Source of the DNA: an uncultured Bacteroidota bacterium
Lineage (GTDB): Bacteria > Bacteroidota > Bacteroidia > Chitinophagales > Chitinophagaceae
Direction: 5' to 3'
DNA length: 64,000 bases
Assembly: GCA_903906365.1 (NCBI GenBank)
Contig: CAIVKC010000057.1
Location: 1-64,000, forward strand
This document shows, one piece after another, positions 53,277 to 63,841 of this stretch; position 1 is the stretch's first letter, and each line of letters starts with the position of its first letter. The translations under genes were made by a program, and so were the position numbers. Under the pieces are notes generated by a model. The model had not been told where the DNA came from. It searched no databases and worked only from the letters and a program-made list of their open reading frames with translations.

Positions 53277-53284
53277 TACCTTTG
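53277..53284 (+). promoter_or_regulatory. -7 promoter box of the sulfur-assimilation operon
   Basis: TACCTTTG, perfect TAnnTTTG, 26 bases before the leader-peptide ATG. Predicted transcript start near 53290, so the leader lies wholly in the 5' untranslated region of cysH. The nearest TTG (53260-53262) is only 14 bases upstream, short for a -33 element. Confidence 0.5.
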
Positions 53285-53296
53285 TCCATCTTATTG

Positions 53297-53303
53297 GTAG
53301 ACT
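53297..53303 (+). promoter_or_regulatory. GTAGACT element shared with the TonB-receptor leader region
   Basis: ATTGGTAGACTTTAATAA (53293-53310) matches, in reverse orientation, the ATTAGTAGACTAATTAAA form found at the second leader (60813-60830). It lies between the promoter box and the leader ATG. Possible operator or RNA element; the shared match is the only support. Confidence 0.35.
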
Positions 53304-53309
53304 TTAATA

Positions 53310-53381
53310 ATGGCTATGATGCATTTTATTATTATTCTGAGCAGGCCGCTTCCCATCCATTCCAACGATTGCTGTTGCTGA
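53310..53381 (+). CDS. Cysteine leader peptide (polycysteine uORF) before cysH
   Basis: A 23-codon frame from ATG at 53310 to TGA at 53379-53381, starting MAMMHFIII and ending Asn-Asp-Cys-Cys-Cys-stop. It lies 20 bases after the predicted transcript start and 57 bases before the cysH ATG. Three tandem Cys codons directly before the stop are what a ribosome-stalling sensor of cysteinyl-tRNA needs, and the operon makes the sulfide for cysteine. Immediately after the stop, GGCGA (53382-53386) can pair weakly with TTGCC (53396-53400), followed by CCCCACTTTTCTTT; this is too weak to call an attenuator. Polycysteine leader peptides are known for sulfur genes in Mycobacteria; that this one is analogous is inference. 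Translation is not shown by sequence. Confidence 0.6.
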   Translation: MAMMHFIIILSRPLPIHSNDCCC

Positions 53382-53438
53382 GGCGACATCCGATATTGCC
53401 CCCCACTTTTCTTTATTAACATATTTCCATAATAAAAC

Positions 53439-54161
53439 ATGCCGGAAAACAGACATATTACAATAATTCCCCAATTACTCGACCAACTCAGTGGACTAAC
53501 CATCGCGGATTCCCTGAAGCTCCTTGCCGGAAAATTTCCCGGCCAAGTGACATTTTCATCGAGTTTTGGATCTGAAGACCAGGTGATCAGTGATCATATA
53601 TTCAGCAATCAAATTCAGATTTCGGTTTTTACACTGGACACTGGCCGCTTATTCCCGGAGACCTATTCGCTGTGGAACAGCACCCGGGAAAAATATGAAG
53701 CCACCATCAGGGCATATTTACCGGACAGCCGGCTTTTAGAACCTTTCCTCGAAGAAAAGGGACCCAATGCATTTTATGAGTCCGTGACCAACCGCAAAAC
53801 CTGCTGCCATATCCGGAAGGTAGAGCCGCTGCAAAGGGCCCTGAAAGGTCAGGCTGTATGGGTTACCGGGCTTCGCTCCGCACATTCTCCGGAGCGGGGA
53901 GATCTGCAGCAGGTGGAATGGGATGATACCAACAAGATTATCAAGTACCACCCACTGTTTCATTGGACGACCCCACAGGTCATGGAATACCTGCACGCAC
54001 GGAATGTACCCTATAACCCGCTGCATGATAAAGGATTTATCAGTATAGGTTGCGCTCCTTGTACCCGTGCTGTCAAGGAGGGTGAAAACTTTCGGGCAGG
54101 GCGCTGGTGGTGGGAAGATGCCGAAAAAAAGGAATGCGGGCTGCACACCCATTCCACCTGA
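53439..54161 (+). CDS. cysH: Adenylylsulfate (APS) reductase
   Basis: 240 residues. PP-loop-like SSSFGSEDQVI and the thioredoxin-target Cys233 in KECGLH place it in the APS/PAPS reductase family. The extra pair Cys122-Cys123 (TCCHIRK) and Cys205-x2-Cys208 (GCAPC) bind a [4Fe-4S] cluster, which marks the APS-using assimilatory form rather than the cluster-free PAPS form. It converts APS to sulfite with thioredoxin. First enzyme gene of the sulfur operon, with no separate APS kinase in the cluster, consistent with APS as the direct substrate. 73 bases to cysD. Confidence 0.95.
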   Translation: MPENRHITIIPQLLDQLSGLTIADSLKLLAGKFPGQVTFSSSFGSEDQVISDHIFSNQIQISVFTLDTGRLFPETYSLWNSTREKYEATIRAYLPDSRLLEPFLEEKGPNAFYESVTNRKTCCHIRKVEPLQRALKGQAVWVTGLRSAHSPERGDLQQVEWDDTNKIIKYHPLFHWTTPQVMEYLHARNVPYNPLHDKGFISIGCAPCTRAVKEGENFRAGRWWWEDAEKKECGLHTHST

Positions 54162-54234: not shown

Positions 54235-55176
54235 ATGGGAGCAGATTCGACAACCAACAGCCGGGAATCATCCACCAGACATGTTGACTACCTGGACCAC
54301 CTGGAATCGGAATCCATACATATCCTGCGTGAAGTGGCCGGTCAATTTGAAAGACCCGCCCTCCTTTTCAGCGGGGGAAAGGATTCAATTACCCTGGTGC
54401 ACCTGGCCTTAAAGGCTTTTCGCCCGGGAAAATTTCCATTTCCGCTGGTTCATATAGACACTGGTCACAATTTCAAAGAAGCCCTTGATTACAGGGACGA
54501 ACTGGCTTTCTCCATCGGCGAGAAACTGATAGTCCGAAAAGTGGAGGATACCATCCGGGAAAAAAAATTGACCGAACAAAAAGGAAAATTTGCCAGCCGG
54601 AATGCCCTGCAAACGTTCACCCTGCTGGATACCATCGAAGAATTTCAATTCGATGCCTGTATTGGCGGAGCCCGTCGTGATGAAGAAAAGGCCAGGGCCA
54701 AGGAAAGGATTTTTTCTGTCCGGGATGAATTTGGGCAGTGGGATCCCAAACTCCAGCGGCCTGAATTATGGAACATTTACAATGGAAGAATAAACAAGGG
54801 TGAAAACGTTCGCGCTTTCCCCATCAGCAACTGGACGGAATTGGACGTCTGGAATTATATCCGTCGGGAAAAAATCAGACTTCCTTCCATCTATTTTGCC
54901 CACAACAGGGAAGTCATTGAACATGAAGGGCAACTGGTCGCCGTATCACCTTTCATCAGGCTGGACGAATACGACAGGGTCATCACCAGGCAGGTTAGGT
55001 ACCGTACGGTGGGAGATATGACCTGCACTGCAGCAGTGGAATCAACGGCATCCACCCTGGATGATATCATTCGCGAGATCACTGCCACAAAGACCAGTGA
55101 ACGCGGAGAGACCAGAATTGATGACAGGGTGTCGGAAGCCGCCATGGAAGACAGGAAAAAGAACGGCTATTTCTAA
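54235..55176 (+). CDS. cysD: Sulfate adenylyltransferase subunit 2
   Basis: 313 residues. PP-loop SGGKDSITL (about 43-51), DTGHNFKEALDYRDELA, and the RRDEEKARAKERIFS box of CysD; HNREVIEHEGQL near the C-terminal third. With CysN it makes APS from ATP and sulfate. Cytoplasmic. Followed 79 bases later by cysN, with no terminator between. Confidence 0.95.
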   Translation: MGADSTTNSRESSTRHVDYLDHLESESIHILREVAGQFERPALLFSGGKDSITLVHLALKAFRPGKFPFPLVHIDTGHNFKEALDYRDELAFSIGEKLIVRKVEDTIREKKLTEQKGKFASRNALQTFTLLDTIEEFQFDACIGGARRDEEKARAKERIFSVRDEFGQWDPKLQRPELWNIYNGRINKGENVRAFPISNWTELDVWNYIRREKIRLPSIYFAHNREVIEHEGQLVAVSPFIRLDEYDRVITRQVRYRTVGDMTCTAAVESTASTLDDIIREITATKTSERGETRIDDRVSEAAMEDRKKNGYF

Positions 55177-55255
55177 TGCCGGCATAAAATAAAAGAACAG
55201 CGGGTTTGGCTTACAGGGAAGGCACTCCGATTTGCAAACATTAATTTCTTTTAAC

Positions 55256-56497
55256 GTGGATATATTAAGATTCATTACAGCCGGTAGTGTAGATGATGGG
55301 AAAAGTACCCTCATCGGAAGATTGCTTTTTGACTCAAAGAGCATACTCATTGATCAGATGGAGGCCTTGGAAAAACAAAGCCGAAATAAAGAGGATGGAG
55401 AAATTGACCTGGCTCTCCTGACAGACGGACTTCGCGCCGAAAGGGAACAGGGTATTACCATTGATGTTGCCTATAAGTATTTTTCCACGCCCAACAGGAA
55501 GTTTATTATCGCAGATGCCCCGGGTCATATTCAGTACACCCGCAATATGGTAACCGGCGCTTCCAATGCCAGCCTGATCATCATACTCATTGATGCCCGC
55601 CAGGGGGTGGTGGAACAAACCCGCCGGCACTCCATCATTGCCTCCCTGCTTAATATTCCCCACATCGTGGTTGCCATCAATAAAATGGACCTGGTTGATT
55701 TTTCCCAAGATGTGTTCAATAATATTGTCATTGACTATGCCAACACGGCCAGGACCCTGCATTTAAAAGATATCACCTACATACCCATCAGTGCCCTGAA
55801 AGGAGACAACATCGTGGACAGATCAGCACGACTTTCCTGGTATGAGGGCGACACCCTATTGGAACTACTCGAGAAAGTAGAAGTGGAAAAAGACCTCAAC
55901 CTGACCCATGCCAGGCTGCCCGTACAATATGTGATAAGGCCACAGACCGAGGAATTGCATGATTACCGTGGCTATGCCGGAAAAATTATCAGCGGCATAT
56001 ATAAAAAAGGAGACCAGATCACCATTTTGCCAGCCGGCACCACCAGCCGGATCAAATCCCTGGAAATAGGAGGTATTGAAGTCAAAGAGGCCTTTGCCCC
56101 GCAGAGTGTTGTGATGCAACTCGAAGATGATCTTGACATCAGCAGGGGTGATCTGATCGTACAGGACAATCATAAACCAACGGTTTCCCAGGACCTTGAG
56201 GTATTACTTTGCTGGATGGATGCAAAACCCCTGGTTCGTGGAAACAGATACCTCCTGCAGATCAACAGCAGAACGGTGAAAAGTGTAGTGAAGGAGATAG
56301 TTTACAGACTCGATGTAAACACACTGGAAAAAAATGAATCTATTCAGCAGGCCGGCCTCAATGATGTAGTTAAAGTACGCATCAGAACAGCCGCTCCTCT
56401 TCCCTTCGATTCCTACCAGGAACTAAGGGTAAACGGAGGAGCGATACTCATCGACGAAACCAGTAACGTAACTGTAGGAGCCTGCATGATTCAATAA
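55256..56497 (+). CDS. cysN: Sulfate adenylyltransferase subunit 1 (GTPase)
   Basis: 413 residues from a GTG at 55256, giving the standard CysN start MDILRFITAGSVDDGKSTL. The frame opens earlier at a TTG (55232) that would add eight residues; there is no ATG. GTPase motifs: P-loop GSVDDGKS (10-17), DAPGHIQYTRNM (G3), NKMDLVD (G4). EF-Tu-like domains 2 and 3 follow, ending TVGACMIQ. GTP hydrolysis drives APS synthesis by CysD. No CysC kinase fusion at the C-terminus, agreeing with the APS reductase type of cysH. 18 bases to the methyltransferase. Confidence 0.95.
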   Translation: MDILRFITAGSVDDGKSTLIGRLLFDSKSILIDQMEALEKQSRNKEDGEIDLALLTDGLRAEREQGITIDVAYKYFSTPNRKFIIADAPGHIQYTRNMVTGASNASLIIILIDARQGVVEQTRRHSIIASLLNIPHIVVAINKMDLVDFSQDVFNNIVIDYANTARTLHLKDITYIPISALKGDNIVDRSARLSWYEGDTLLELLEKVEVEKDLNLTHARLPVQYVIRPQTEELHDYRGYAGKIISGIYKKGDQITILPAGTTSRIKSLEIGGIEVKEAFAPQSVVMQLEDDLDISRGDLIVQDNHKPTVSQDLEVLLCWMDAKPLVRGNRYLLQINSRTVKSVVKEIVYRLDVNTLEKNESIQQAGLNDVVKVRIRTAAPLPFDSYQELRVNGGAILIDETSNVTVGACMIQ

Positions 56498-56515: not shown

Positions 56516-57340
56516 ATGAACAACAATCAACATACAGGCAAGGTCATTTTGGCGGGTGCAGGACCCGGCGACCCGGAATTACTGACCATCAAGGCTTTCC
56601 GCTGGCTGCAACGGGCCGATGTCGTTATTTCAGACAGGCTGGTCAGCGATGTCATATTGGAGGAATACACCAACCCCGACGCCCTAGTGCTGCATGTGGG
56701 CAAGCAATGCAGCAAAGGTTTTTCAACCCCGCAGTCAACCATTAACGAGCTCCTGGTGGAATATGCACTACAGGGCAAACTGGTGGTCCGCCTCAAAGGT
56801 GGGGATGTGTCTGTTTTTTCGAATGTGCTGGATGAACTACAGGTACTGGTGCAGCATGATATCCCCTATGAAATCGTTCCCGGCATCACCGCGGCCCTTG
56901 GTGCGGCCGCCTATGCGGGAATCCCGCTTACGGCAAGAGGCTATTCAACTGCCGTACGGTTTATGACTTTTTACCGTAAGGAACTATTATCCACGGCAAA
57001 CTGGCAGGATCTGGCTCATTCACAAGACACCCTTGTTTTCTATATGTCATCGGAATCAATGGATGATTTGATCGCCCAACTAATATCCCATGGGATGTCC
57101 GGGTCAACGCCCCTGGCCCTGGTGGAACAGGCAACTACACCTTTCCAGCAGGTCCATCTGACCAACATCGGGGACTTTGGCTTTTTTCACCGGACAAAGA
57201 ATTTTGTGTCACCGACACTGATCATTATTGGAAAAACAGCCGGACTTCATGAACAATTCCGGTGGGTGGCAAATCACCAAGGCGGTGAAAATTATTTCAA
57301 ACCGGTTGCCGATAGCAGCCAGGCTTCTGCCCGGGCCTGA
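56516..57340 (+). CDS. cobA: Uroporphyrinogen-III C-methyltransferase
   Basis: 274 residues. GKVILAGAGPGDPELLTIKA opens the SAM-binding domain; ADVVISDRLVS and VRLKGGDVSVFSNVLDE follow (classical SUMT reads GGDPFIFGRG here); then IVPGITAALGAAAYAGIPLTARG. It methylates uroporphyrinogen III to precorrin-2 using SAM, the first step to siroheme, the prosthetic group of the sulfite reductase two genes downstream. The lack of a CysG dehydrogenase domain is complemented by the separate partial gene at 63838. Some divergence of the active-site loop; I still hold the assignment. Confidence 0.92.
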   Translation: MNNNQHTGKVILAGAGPGDPELLTIKAFRWLQRADVVISDRLVSDVILEEYTNPDALVLHVGKQCSKGFSTPQSTINELLVEYALQGKLVVRLKGGDVSVFSNVLDELQVLVQHDIPYEIVPGITAALGAAAYAGIPLTARGYSTAVRFMTFYRKELLSTANWQDLAHSQDTLVFYMSSESMDDLIAQLISHGMSGSTPLALVEQATTPFQQVHLTNIGDFGFFHRTKNFVSPTLIIIGKTAGLHEQFRWVANHQGGENYFKPVADSSQASARA

Positions 57341-59131: not shown

Positions 59132-60799
59132 ATGATGGATAAAACCAATTTGACGGTCATAGAAAAGATAAAACAGGCCAGCCAGGGGCTCCGCGGCACC
59201 ATCGCCGATGGCCTGCTCGACGATTTGACAGGAGCCATCAGCGAGGAAGACCAGGCCCTCATAAAATTCCACGGTATGTACCAACAGGATGACCGGGACC
59301 GCAGGGAAGAAAGGTCAGCCAAAAAATTGGAAAGGCTCTATTCATTCATGATCAGGCTCAGACTCCCGGGAGGGCTCCTGACTCCGGAGCAGTGGATGGC
59401 AATACATGATATAGCCGGTGAAAACACAACCGGTGTCATAAAGATCACCACCCGGCAGACCATTCAGTTACATGGATTGCTCAAGTCAAAGATCAAACCC
59501 ACTATCCTTGCCTTCAGTGAGGCCAGGCTGGATTCCATAGCCACCTGCGGGGACATTAACCGAAACGTCATTTGCGCAGCCCACCCGGGGCAGTCCCCCC
59601 TGCATGCACAGGTTCATGCCTATGCCGGAAAGATCAGTGAACTGCTGATGCCCAAGACCCGCGCATACTATGAAATATGGCTGGATGAGGAAAAAATAGC
59701 GGACAAAAAACAGGAGGAAGACCCCCTGTATCAGGACCGCTATTTGCCCCGGAAATTCAAGATCGCCATTGCCATACCGCCCAACAATGACATAGACCTC
59801 TTTACCAATGACATCGGCCTGATCGCGATTGTGGAAAGCGGGCAACTGATGGGTTTCAACATTGCGGTAGGAGGTGGATTGTCCACTACACACGGCAACC
59901 CCGCGACCTATGCCAGGCTTGGGAGTGTGATCGGATTTGTAGCCGGTGAAACAAACCTGTTAAAGGCTGTCTATGAAATTGTAACCATACAGCGCGATTA
60001 CGGAAACCGCACCGACCGGAAACTGGCGAGGCTTAAGTATACGGTGGACAAATTGGGGCTGGAATGGTTCAAAAAAGAGCTGGAATCACGCATGGGATTC
60101 GATTTGCAAAGTCCCAGGCCCTATTCCTTCACTGACAGAAAGGACTATTATGGCTGGAAGAAAAATGAACAGGGCAATTGGTTTTACACTCCTTTCATAG
60201 AGAACGGGAGGATTACGGACGAAGCGGGCCACCCGTTGAAATCGGCGCTGCTGGCTATTGCACAAACCGGAAAATGCCTTTTCCGCTTTACCGGCAACCA
60301 GAATCTCATCCTGGCAGATATTAAACCTGAAGATAAAAAGGAGCTCGACCTGATTCTTGAAAAATTCGGGATCCTGGCCCATACGGCAGCGGCCTCCTCC
60401 ATCCGGAAAAATGCGATGGCCTGCGTGGCCTTCAATACATGCCCACTGGCACTGGCGGAAGCACAGCGTTACCTGCCTTCCTTATTGGGAAAAATAGAAC
60501 CAATCCTGGACAAACACGGCCTCCGGGATCAAAACATCATTACCCGAATGACCGGATGTCCCAATGGTTGTGCCAGGCCCTATGCCGCTGAAATCGGTTT
60601 TGTCGGCACGGCCTATGGCCATTATAACCTACACTTGGGCGGGGACCACCAGGGAACCAGGCTAAACCGGATCTACAGGGAAAACCTCGATGAAACAGCC
60701 ATTCTGACTGAATTAGACCAGTTGCTGGGGGTTTTCAGCCAGGAAAGAAATCCGTCGGAATCCTTTGGGGACTTCTCGGTGCGCAAAGGATGGGTCTGA
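59132..60799 (+). CDS. cysI: Assimilatory sulfite reductase hemoprotein subunit
   Basis: 555 residues. Siroheme/[4Fe-4S] cysteines C431-x5-C437 ... C476-x3-C480 (CVAFNTC and GCPNGCARP). RLRLPGGLLTPEQW and ENTTGVIKITTRQTIQLHG are the two substrate/siroheme Arg regions near the start. It reduces sulfite to sulfide with six electrons. Nitrite reductases share this fold, but the flavoprotein partner and the cys genes around it make sulfite the substrate. The two ATGs at 59132 and 59135 are equal candidates. Followed by the second leader region. Confidence 0.94.
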   Translation: MMDKTNLTVIEKIKQASQGLRGTIADGLLDDLTGAISEEDQALIKFHGMYQQDDRDRREERSAKKLERLYSFMIRLRLPGGLLTPEQWMAIHDIAGENTTGVIKITTRQTIQLHGLLKSKIKPTILAFSEARLDSIATCGDINRNVICAAHPGQSPLHAQVHAYAGKISELLMPKTRAYYEIWLDEEKIADKKQEEDPLYQDRYLPRKFKIAIAIPPNNDIDLFTNDIGLIAIVESGQLMGFNIAVGGGLSTTHGNPATYARLGSVIGFVAGETNLLKAVYEIVTIQRDYGNRTDRKLARLKYTVDKLGLEWFKKELESRMGFDLQSPRPYSFTDRKDYYGWKKNEQGNWFYTPFIENGRITDEAGHPLKSALLAIAQTGKCLFRFTGNQNLILADIKPEDKKELDLILEKFGILAHTAAASSIRKNAMACVAFNTCPLALAEAQRYLPSLLGKIEPILDKHGLRDQNIITRMTGCPNGCARPYAAEIGFVGTAYGHYNLHLGGDHQGTRLNRIYRENLDETAILTELDQLLGVFSQERNPSESFGDFSVRKGWV

Positions 60800-60814: not shown

Positions 60815-60830
60815 AATTAGTCTACTAATT
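60815..60830. promoter_or_regulatory. Palindromic operator candidate AATTAGT-CT-ACTAATT
   Basis: A perfect 7-bp inverted repeat with a 2-base spacer, placed 16 bases upstream of the TACATTTG box, where a -33 element would lie. Its half contains AGTCTAC, the reverse complement of the GTAGACT element before the first leader. Size and position fit a dimeric repressor or activator site. No regulator gene is next to it. Confidence 0.5.
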
Positions 60831-60846
60831 TTATAGAGTTAAACCT

Positions 60847-60978: not shown

Positions 60979-61027
60979 ATATCCGTTAAAAAAATTTGAT
61001 TATATATTCTACTTAATTAATGGACTA

Positions 61028-63841
61028 ATGCTTATTAAATACAAACTGCTTTTGCTTTCAGTTGCCCTGCTGCCCTTGTCCCTGCTGGCCCAGGAATCTT
61101 TTATCATTTCCGGAAAAATCCAGGATTCGCTCAATAGTCAGGTGCTTGCAGGCGCCTCCATCCGTATCAAAGGGACTTTGACGGGAACAGTCGCCGGGGA
61201 AGACGGAAGTTTTCAAATTAAAACCGGGCGCTCCCTGCCTATAACCCTTGTTGTAACCTCCATTGGATACAAGACACAGGAATTCTACATTACGGACAAA
61301 AACAAGTCGGATATCTCCATATCGCTGCATGCCCAAAGCCTGCTCGTGGACCAGGTGGTTGTCACGGCCTCCCGGGTATCTGAGAGCATTCTCCGGTCCC
61401 CGGTAACGATAGAAAAACTCGACCTGCGCAGTATCAAGGAAAGTCCCGCTCCCAGTTTTTTTGACGCCCTGGAAAACGTGAAAGGGGTGCAGATGACCAC
61501 ACTCAGCCTGGGCTTTAAGGTTCCCAACACCCGGGGGTTCAGCGGAACGACCAATTCCAGGTTCCTTCAAATGGTGGACGGAGTCGATAATATTTCTCCG
61601 GGTATCGGAGCACCGATTGCCAATGCGGTTGGCCCCACCGAACTTGATATTGAGAGTGTGGAACTTATTCCGGGAGCAGCCTCCGCACTCTACGGCCTAA
61701 ACGCGGTCAATGGCATATCAAACATGAAGACCAAATCACCTTTCCAGTACCAGGGCCTGGGTGTCTATGTCAAGACGGGGGTGAACCATGTGGATGGCAA
61801 AGACCATGATCCCGCCCTATTTTCCGAATATGCCATCCGCTATGCAAAGGCCGTCAGCAAGATATTTGCATTCAAAATCAACGCGTCCATTTCAAGGGGA
61901 ACGGACTGGATAGCCGGCAATTATCATGACCAGTACTATGATGCAGGCAATAAGACCAACCTGGCACTGGTCTCCTCCAACCCCGCGGCAGACCTGATAA
62001 ACCGATACGGGGATGAATACAATTCCGACCTAAAAACCATTACACTGCAGGGTAAAAAGTACGATGTTTCCCGTACCGGTTACCGGGAAAAGGACCTCAC
62101 CGACTATGCACTTAAAAACACCAAATTGGATGCGGCCCTATTTTTTAAGCTTTCCAAGCAAACAGAACTCTCCTATTCCTACCGCATTGGCGTTGCCACC
62201 AACAATTATCAGCGGGGAAACCGCGTGAGGCTGGATGGAGAGACCATCCAGCAGCATGTTTTATCGCTTAAGGGAGAAGATTTTACATTAAAGGCCTATT
62301 ACACAAGTGAAAATACCGGGAACAACTCTTTCAATTACAGGCCACTGGCTGAGAACATTGACCTGGCCTTCAAAAAACCCGGCCGTTGGTACGCAGATTA
62401 TACCAATGCCTTCAACGCGGCCTTTCTCAACAATGGTGGCAATGTGTCTGCCTCTCATGATGCTGCAAGAGCAGCTGCCGACCAGGGGCGATTCCAACCG
62501 GGAACCCGCGCCTTTGACAGCGTCAGAAACCAGATCATTCATACCAATAACTGGGATACAGTGGGTGCCCAGTTGCTCCTGAAATCCGCTTTCCTCCACC
62601 TGGAAGGCCAATACGACTGGTCAAAGATCATACCCTACCTGCAGGTGCTGACCGGATTCAATTACCGCAAATATATAGTGACCCCGGATGGCAATAATTA
62701 TGTAAACCCCGCCTCCTTCGCTGATCCCAAGCAATCAGGCGCAGACTTTTACTATTACAGTTTCGGGGGGTTCCTGCAGGCTTCCAAAAACCTCCTGGAT
62801 GAAAGGCTTAAAATAAGCGCTTCCCTGCGCATTGATGAATCAGAATATTTTTCTCCGAAACTAAACCCGCGCATAGCCGTGGTCTATTCGCCGAATGAGC
62901 ATCATTTTTTCCGCAGTTCATTCCAGAACGGCTACCGCTTTCCCACCCTCTTCGAAGGATTTGCCTATGTAAACAACGGAGGTGTCCGCCGCCTCGGGGG
63001 CTTACGGGTAACTTCAGGCCACCTCGGTGTTTTTGAGAATTCCTATATCAACACGTCTGTCACCGCCTTCAAAAATGCGGTCAATGCAGATATCAATAAC
63101 GGTATTTCGCAGTCTGCCGCAATTACCAGCGAGCAGGGCCGGCTGGTAAAAAGCACCTATCAATACATACAGCCTGAGCATATCAATTCCTGGGAGCTGG
63201 GCTATAAGGGAGTCCTGATGGACAACCGGCTTTTTATTGACCTGGATTACTATTTCAGTGCTTATAATAATTTCATAGGTCAATTGGACGTGACCCAGCC
63301 CTACAAGGGTACCATTGGAGTGGATGACTCCACTGCCGTGTACGCCTATAACGGAGGTAAACAGGTAAACAAATTTAAGATGTGGACCAACTCCAAGAGC
63401 CTGGTTACCAACCAGGGCGTTGAAGCAGGTTTAACCTATAATTTTTATAAAAAATTCAATATCACCACCAATGTCAGTTATGCTGCCATTGCCAGCATTT
63501 CTTCCTCCGATGCCTTTACTCCCGCCTTCAATACCCCCAGCTGGATCACCAATATTTCCCTGGGTAACCGGGAGGTACTGCCCAATACCGGGTTCAATAT
63601 TGGGTGGCATTACCAAACGGCCTTTTATTGGAACAGCCCGCTTGCCACCGGCACGGTGCCTGCCTATGGAACCATAGATGCCCAGGTCAATTACCGGGTA
63701 CCCGCCTGGTCCAGTGTGCTCAAACTGGGCGCTACGGATATCTTCAATCACAGGTATTATCAATACATTGGGGGACCAACCATTGGAGGATTTTATTATT
63801 TGACCATTGTATTTGAAACCAGCACCCGGAAAAATAAATGA
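61028..63841 (+). CDS. TonB-dependent receptor within the sulfur/siroheme unit
   Basis: 937 residues. Signal peptide 1-20 (LLPLSLLAQ), carboxypeptidase-like domain about 25-105 (ISGKIQDSLNSQVLAGASIRI, SIGYKTQEFYI), plug domain about 115-225 with TRGFSGTTNSRFLQMVDGVDN and ALYGLNAVNGI, then a 22-strand barrel. Single receptor without SusD; the carboxypeptidase-like domain is typical of Bacteroidota SusC-like and siderophore-type receptors alike. Its place between cysI and the siroheme gene, the Cys-codon leader in front and the ATGA overlap behind point to uptake of a sulfur compound or iron/tetrapyrrole. Which of these is not decided by sequence. Confidence 0.88.
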   Translation: MLIKYKLLLLSVALLPLSLLAQESFIISGKIQDSLNSQVLAGASIRIKGTLTGTVAGEDGSFQIKTGRSLPITLVVTSIGYKTQEFYITDKNKSDISISLHAQSLLVDQVVVTASRVSESILRSPVTIEKLDLRSIKESPAPSFFDALENVKGVQMTTLSLGFKVPNTRGFSGTTNSRFLQMVDGVDNISPGIGAPIANAVGPTELDIESVELIPGAASALYGLNAVNGISNMKTKSPFQYQGLGVYVKTGVNHVDGKDHDPALFSEYAIRYAKAVSKIFAFKINASISRGTDWIAGNYHDQYYDAGNKTNLALVSSNPAADLINRYGDEYNSDLKTITLQGKKYDVSRTGYREKDLTDYALKNTKLDAALFFKLSKQTELSYSYRIGVATNNYQRGNRVRLDGETIQQHVLSLKGEDFTLKAYYTSENTGNNSFNYRPLAENIDLAFKKPGRWYADYTNAFNAAFLNNGGNVSASHDAARAAADQGRFQPGTRAFDSVRNQIIHTNNWDTVGAQLLLKSAFLHLEGQYDWSKIIPYLQVLTGFNYRKYIVTPDGNNYVNPASFADPKQSGADFYYYSFGGFLQASKNLLDERLKISASLRIDESEYFSPKLNPRIAVVYSPNEHHFFRSSFQNGYRFPTLFEGFAYVNNGGVRRLGGLRVTSGHLGVFENSYINTSVTAFKNAVNADINNGISQSAAITSEQGRLVKSTYQYIQPEHINSWELGYKGVLMDNRLFIDLDYYFSAYNNFIGQLDVTQPYKGTIGVDDSTAVYAYNGGKQVNKFKMWTNSKSLVTNQGVEAGLTYNFYKKFNITTNVSYAAIASISSSDAFTPAFNTPSWITNISLGNREVLPNTGFNIGWHYQTAFYWNSPLATGTVPAYGTIDAQVNYRVPAWSSVLKLGATDIFNHRYYQYIGGPTIGGFYYLTIVFETSTRKNK

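Follow-up and report, generated by a model that had tools for sequence, protein, structure and literature searches.

A candidate polycysteine leader peptide upstream of the sulfate-assimilation operon in the Chitinophagaceae

The closest described systems are the polycysteine short open reading frames (ORFs) of Mycobacterium, which have been tested in M. smegmatis (Canestrari et al. 2020, as cited in passages of PMC9094748, PMC9031893 and PMC13236596). Candidate cys leaders with Cys codons near the stop have also been proposed for Mycobacterium, Propionibacterium acnes and Bifidobacterium, the last before cbs in B. longum (PMC1262725). In the preliminary description of the DNA analysed here, polycysteine leaders were said to be known in Mycobacteria and other Actinobacteria. 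In the Rhodobacterales, the uORFC-8-2 motif precedes cysS and, as presented in the passages concerned, has two tandem Cys codons, stems and a terminator-like U run (PMC8632094). Within the Bacteroidota, leader-peptide attenuation has been inferred upstream of amino-acid operons of Flavobacterium psychrophilum, the main-text passages mentioning no cysteine leader (PMC9723704), and Bacteroidota leader peptides in general have been treated in passages that likewise mention no cysteine leader (PMC7366714). A cysteine leader of the Bacteroidota was not found in the open-licence literature, and the earlier statement that no case had been described in this phylum is consistent with that search.

Here, we report a short frame ending in tandem Cys codons before the cysH operon of a member of the Chitinophagaceae, together with similar frames in its relatives. 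As far as the cited passages go, these loci resemble the mycobacterial ORFs in having a short ORF with a Cys run upstream of genes for cysteine metabolism, in occurring several times per genome and in that stalling is proposed to unmask the downstream start. With the cys leaders of PMC1262725, to judge from the passages on them, they share Cys codons near the stop, the absence of a terminator, pyrimidine motifs in the gap and the suggestion of Rho; the gap motifs were reported there as not conserved, whereas the C over G bias described below is a mean over 67 loci. Tandem Cys codons in an upstream ORF are likewise common to our loci and to the uORFC-8-2 motif, as are stems and a terminator-like U run, whereas that motif belongs to cysS and has a consensus structure (PMC8632094), and our leaders precede cysH or a cysE-like gene and yielded no common structure.

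The candidate leader frame and its operon

The window, that is, the whole stretch of 64,000 nucleotides that was analysed, carries on its plus strand an ORF at 53310..53381 that starts with ATG at 53310 and encodes MAMMHFIIILSRPLPIHSNDCCC*, alternative starts being possible at 53316 and 53319. Its last three sense codons, TGC TGT TGC at 53370..53378 (+), are tandem Cys codons and, on the basis of the sequence, the run counts and the frame statistics, the proposed stall site; the stop codon TGA follows directly at 53379-53381. The stop lies 57 bases before the start of cysH at 53439. The window has one of the general features of an amino-acid leader-peptide attenuator, namely a short ORF with tandem codons for the end product of a pathway, 5' of the operon of that pathway. 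A run of three is the shortest that we counted, which is a point against the leader reading, and a search with 4227 Rfam families gave no match in the window at the gathering score.

The genes downstream are assigned to sulfate assimilation by NCBIfam. On the plus strand, cysH, encoding (phospho)adenylylsulfate reductase (53439..54161; TIGR02055, 244.5 bits against a cut-off of 235.3), is followed by cysD and cysN for the small and large subunits of sulfate adenylyltransferase (54235..55176 and 55232..56497), a uroporphyrinogen-III C-methyltransferase gene for siroheme (56516..57340), a cysJ-like gene for a sulfite reductase flavoprotein that falls below the curated cut-off of TIGR01931 (57376..59067), and cysI for the sulfite reductase hemoprotein (59132..60799). 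The preliminary description had placed a Cys-Cys-Cys-stop frame 57 bases before cysH at the head of these genes; sequence and translation agree on the frame, and coordinates and NCBIfam matches agree on its position. After cysI comes a gene for a TonB-dependent receptor (61028-63841), possibly for a sulfur source.

Upstream of the frame, the TAnnTTTG box that had been described before is present as TACCTTTG at 53277..53284 (+), and we take this motif to be the Bacteroidota-type −7 promoter box. In 57 of 68 leader loci, such a box precedes the Cys run by no more than 150 nt. Since 25 nt separate the end of the box from the leader ATG in the window, we infer a transcription start that leaves a short 5' untranslated stretch of roughly 20 nt, unlike a leaderless start. 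The mycobacterial polycysteine ORFs are reportedly leaderless, with transcription beginning at the leader AUG; the present frame would differ from them in this respect, as it does in phylum.

The end of the box overlaps an imperfect palindrome, GTCCATC-TTATT-GGTAGAC at 53284..53302 (+), an exact match to the pattern GTCYAY-N7-RTRGAC and probably the operator of a transcription factor. This pattern occurs in 24 of 73 leader loci, compared with 13 of 160 other loci and 26 of 2133 background windows, and in 20 matches, in cysH operons of relatives, it sits at offset −1 from the promoter box. Because the palindrome overlaps the box in the window and in relatives alike, a transcription factor is suggested to act besides the leader as a second layer of control. 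Two copies with one mismatch, at 60820-60838 and 61007-61025, precede the TonB receptor gene at 61028; with at most one mismatch allowed, the window holds eight palindromes, little above chance (shuffle mean 3.76, with 6 of 100 shuffles reaching eight).

Cys runs across cysH upstream regions

The preliminary description had held that tandem Cys codons beside a stop are rare by chance, which fails for a single instance. TGYTGYTGYTRR has 94 copies in the 4.66-Mb genome of the window, 35 of them with a true stop, so one such string is not significant in itself, whereas the comparative signal is. We examined 33 of the 35 Cys-Cys-Cys-stop strings, the window's included (those on contigs C52 and C66 were left out), and in 30 of the 32 others one strand has a stop-to-stop frame of 100 codons or more that spans the string, so that these strings may be out-of-frame readings of coding DNA. 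The two exceptions, L294 and L303, were viewed briefly, and among the 33 strings none besides the window's was convincing as a second Cys leader of this genome.

For the comparison, 254 cysH loci were collected, of which 236 were distinct after removal of near-identical upstream regions. A draw from the family gave a cysH match in 95 of 147 genomes, with 94 loci read (L001-L088, L273 and L280-L284; genome G079 was left out), and a draw from the phylum gave one in 145 of 296 genomes, with 81 loci read, some repeating the family draw. On the sense strand, 75 of the 236 regions have three or more Cys codons in tandem; on the antisense strand the number is 6, and 20 rounds of dinucleotide shuffling gave 2.65 on average. 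The excess grows with the length of the run: at least four codons occur in 53 regions (antisense 0, shuffle mean 0.2) and at least five in 23 (antisense 0, shuffle mean 0.0). When a short frame with ATG and stop around a run of at least three residues was required, Cys gave 71 of 236, Leu 17, Thr 7, Ile 6 and every other residue at most 5; as a point against, the remaining 165 regions have no Cys-run ORF. Leu and Val runs of at least three are also frequent on the sense strand (110 and 54), and most are taken to be the same DNA as the Cys runs, because TGY runs read in shifted frames give these codons.

The leaders were characterised in sets drawn from the first 168 loci only, with Cys runs of at least three codons no more than 180 nt from cysH: 76 leaders, reduced to 68 distinct ones and then to 60 representatives (L094, where upstream DNA is missing, was also left out). 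In the 68 distinct leaders, the Cys frame has an ATG within 150 nt of 67 runs and a stop within 9 nt of 53, whereas the two shifted frames have such an ATG for 7 and 15 runs and such a stop for 6 and 9; in 38 leaders the stop of the Cys frame stands directly behind the run. The runs use TGT 196 times and TGC 86 times. The layout is alike across loci: the box is followed by the leader with its Cys run and stop, and a gap with a median of 60.5 nt leads to cysH. The body of the peptide outside the run is not conserved, the longest runs vary from 3 to 8 Cys, and Cys clusters broken by other codons are common.

The preliminary description had called for a frame at the same place in relatives, with a bias towards silent changes. 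The frame was found at that place, with an unrelated peptide body, which speaks for the leader reading: it occurs in 33 of 88 family-draw loci with the closer cysH (L001-L088) and in 42 of 80 named contigs, some of which are the same genomes as in the family draw; the bias was not seen. The one group tested, eight leaders of the Rufibacter group, gave no clear silent-change bias (silent to replacing changes 45:57 in the Cys frame, 52:68 and 16:95 in the others), and as the DNA around the Cys run itself is nearly invariant in this group, the test is uninformative. What the sequences do show is selection across relatives for the Cys run and not for a peptide.

Within the family draw, leaders become commoner the closer a cysH is to that of the window: they are present in 6 of 45 loci scoring below 300 bits, in 18 of 32 scoring 300-330 and in 9 of 11 scoring above 330. 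The window's genus is represented by three genomes (L001, L025 and L035), and each of them carries a leader. Named carriers outside the Chitinophagaceae include Rufibacter and Sabulibacter (L107, L116, L117 and others) and members of the Saprospiraceae (L157, L166). Among L199-L284, which comprise the phylum draw, a few repeats and distant family copies, 4 of 86 loci have a leader: L236 from the order of the window, L256 and L267 from other classes of the phylum, and L281 from the window's family. In L212, from the same class as the window, a short frame 5' of cysH contains CMMMMCCM and may represent a leader that combines cysteine with methionine.

Leaders are not confined to cysH. Among 30 loci found with the cysE model, five have a short frame with a Cys run; three of these are leader-like before the gene (L313, L315 and L321) and two are unconvincing as leaders (L329 and L330). 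The name cysE-like is tentative, as no match reached the curated cut-off of that model. The three genomes belong to the window's family, and their leaders recur in 3 of 30 cysKM loci.

From this evidence we consider it very probable that the cysH operon has a ribosome-mediated attenuator with this frame as its sensor, and that cysteinyl-tRNA would be sensed by stalling. In our model, ribosomes would translate the leader as part of the operon mRNA. A shortage of charged tRNA-Cys would make them stall on the three Cys codons next to the stop, and the operon would then be expressed; with ample cysteine, they would run off the leader and expression would presumably fall.

Candidate outputs of the leader

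How stalling would be turned into expression is a separate question. The preliminary description had left the choice between attenuation and control of cysH translation open, and relatives carry signs of both, whereas the window has neither a terminator nor a helix. For the window, with neither of these and with only a modest skew in its gap, we place the sensor with confidence and the output tentatively; termination by Rho within the gap seems to us likelier than a helix that masks the cysH start.

Rho would load on the C-rich, G-poor gap after the ribosome has left, and a ribosome stalled near the stop would hinder that loading; we regard this as possible, at somewhat under an even chance. 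The gap of 57 nt in the window (53382..53438, +) is, by base composition, a candidate Rho-entry stretch, like the one expected behind the leader stop in Rho-dependent attenuators of the tnaC type, or an unstructured spacer, with 29% C and 11% G when its last 12 nt are left aside and with six C at 53399-53404. Over 67 leader loci, the mean gap composition is C 0.273 and G 0.122, a C over G skew of 0.394, compared with 0.068 in 54 no-leader loci of the same sets, −0.134 in 63 no-leader loci of the wider draw and 0.11 in 31 genes of the window, cysH included; the difference between leader loci and the 117 no-leader loci is clear (Mann-Whitney, 9e-22). The absence of an intrinsic terminator from 71 of 75 leader loci in a strict scan is consistent with Rho, and the idea has already been raised, in the passages concerned, for mycobacterial cys leaders (PMC1262725). 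However, base composition alone does not make a Rho site, and by the common measure from −72 to −12 the window's cysH has a skew of only 0.20, seventh of 31, with six window genes higher. A stalled ribosome, moreover, covers only about 15 nt downstream, which counts against a hindrance of loading. The C-richness may only keep the gap unstructured.

The alternative, which we think rather doubtful as the output, is translational attenuation, in which leader codons just ahead of the Cys run would hold the cysH start in a helix until a stalled ribosome breaks it and frees cysH. In the 60 representatives, the 45 nt that lead up to the first Cys codon are more complementary to the cysH start than permuted pairs are (−9.78 vs −7.98 kcal/mol, permuted s.d. 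0.32, z −5.6; 0 of 20000 permutations as low), seven control windows being null; pairing is strongest between leader windows from −42 to −2 of the first Cys codon and a target from −6 to +18 of the cysH ATG. Modelling a stalled ribosome raises access to the cysH start from 0.498 to 0.551 (p 5.5e-4), a small mean change, and only 12 to 16 of the 60 loci stand out individually. Before composition was controlled, two of five offsets showed a signal in 53 no-leader loci as well (z −2.4 and −2.65); since this control was not clean, the test was repeated with shuffles, whereupon the leader loci kept their signal (mean z −0.73 vs 0.04, p 5e-5; second target range, p 9e-4) and the no-leader loci showed none (p 0.36 to 0.90). 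In L025, from the window's own genus, a nine-base helix covers the cysH AUG. The window itself, in contrast, has no leader-to-start helix (z −0.12, and later 0.0 and 0.1 for two target ranges), and a modelled stalled ribosome leaves access to its cysH start unchanged, at 0.62 to 0.63, when folded with footprint constraints. The mycobacterial type of pairing between a leader and the downstream ribosome-binding region is thus absent from the window and found in a subset of its relatives. Reinitiation from leader to cysH was also considered and judged unlikely across the 57-nt gap; for Bacteroidetes, a study of reinitiation gives a peak at 11-14 bp in the passage concerned (PMC4833913).

In a few relatives, intrinsic-terminator attenuators are predicted before cysH, in which alternative hairpins accompany a terminator. 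The strict scan placed a terminator-like hairpin between the run and cysH in 4 of the 75 leader loci, L048 (weak), L155, L166 and L281, and within the last 90 nt it found one in 6 of 161 no-leader loci; by eye, the folds of L157, L256 and L280 are terminator versions as well, L280 having only two tandem Cys codons. In the fold of L281, the leader start pairs with GGAGAAGG and the terminator is formed by CCTTCTC...GAAGGCTTTTTC; by our own reading of the letters, GGAGAAGG could alternatively pair with the 5' arm of the terminator. In L155, a terminator of 17 pairs has a 5' arm that is matched by CCGAAGGG, which lies nine bases downstream of the run. The leaders before the cysE-like gene in L313, L315 and L321 are followed by hairpins and then T, which is terminator-like. 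The plus strand of the window has no terminator-like site, and alternative terminator and antiterminator hairpins were not found there. Unlike in the mycobacterial ORFs, then, terminator versions are also found among the Bacteroidota relatives, and the predicted output differs between lineages.

Other readings of the Cys run and significance

A different sensing mode, in which the Cys-rich nascent peptide responds to a metal or to thiol oxidation instead of tRNA charging, seems to us very improbable. Tandem Cys can bind metal, and the copper-responsive upstream ORF of Bordetella provides a model; against this stand the lack of conservation in the peptide body, the variation of the longest Cys runs between 3 and 8 and the fact that the genes behind the leader assimilate sulfate. 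Least credible of all is that the frame is a product of chance or of TGT/TGC repeats, as might be argued from the 35 strings in the genome and from runs that can also be read as Leu and Val, since ATG and stop suit the Cys frame far better than the other frames, interrupted Cys clusters are common and the position before cysH is similar to that before the cysE-like gene.

Returning to the leader as a sensor of cysteinyl-tRNA, we propose, with the balance even between its being right and wrong, that the Bacteroidota, which mostly initiate without Shine-Dalgarno pairing, have a widespread cysteine leader made of one sensor, a Cys run at the stop or close to it, with interchangeable outputs, namely intrinsic terminator, Rho-type C-rich gap or leader-to-start helix, and that it would form a ribosome-operated cysteine regulon covering cysH operons and, in some genomes, cysE-like ones. 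If this is true, ribosome-based cysteine sensing would reach the Bacteroidota, besides the Actinobacteria and Rhodobacterales. There would then be dozens of natural variants with a constant sensor and a changing output, through which the shifts of an attenuator between transcriptional and translational control could be followed. Translated small ORFs would be predicted at these loci, and they would offer a test of control by stalling in organisms where Shine-Dalgarno sites are rare.
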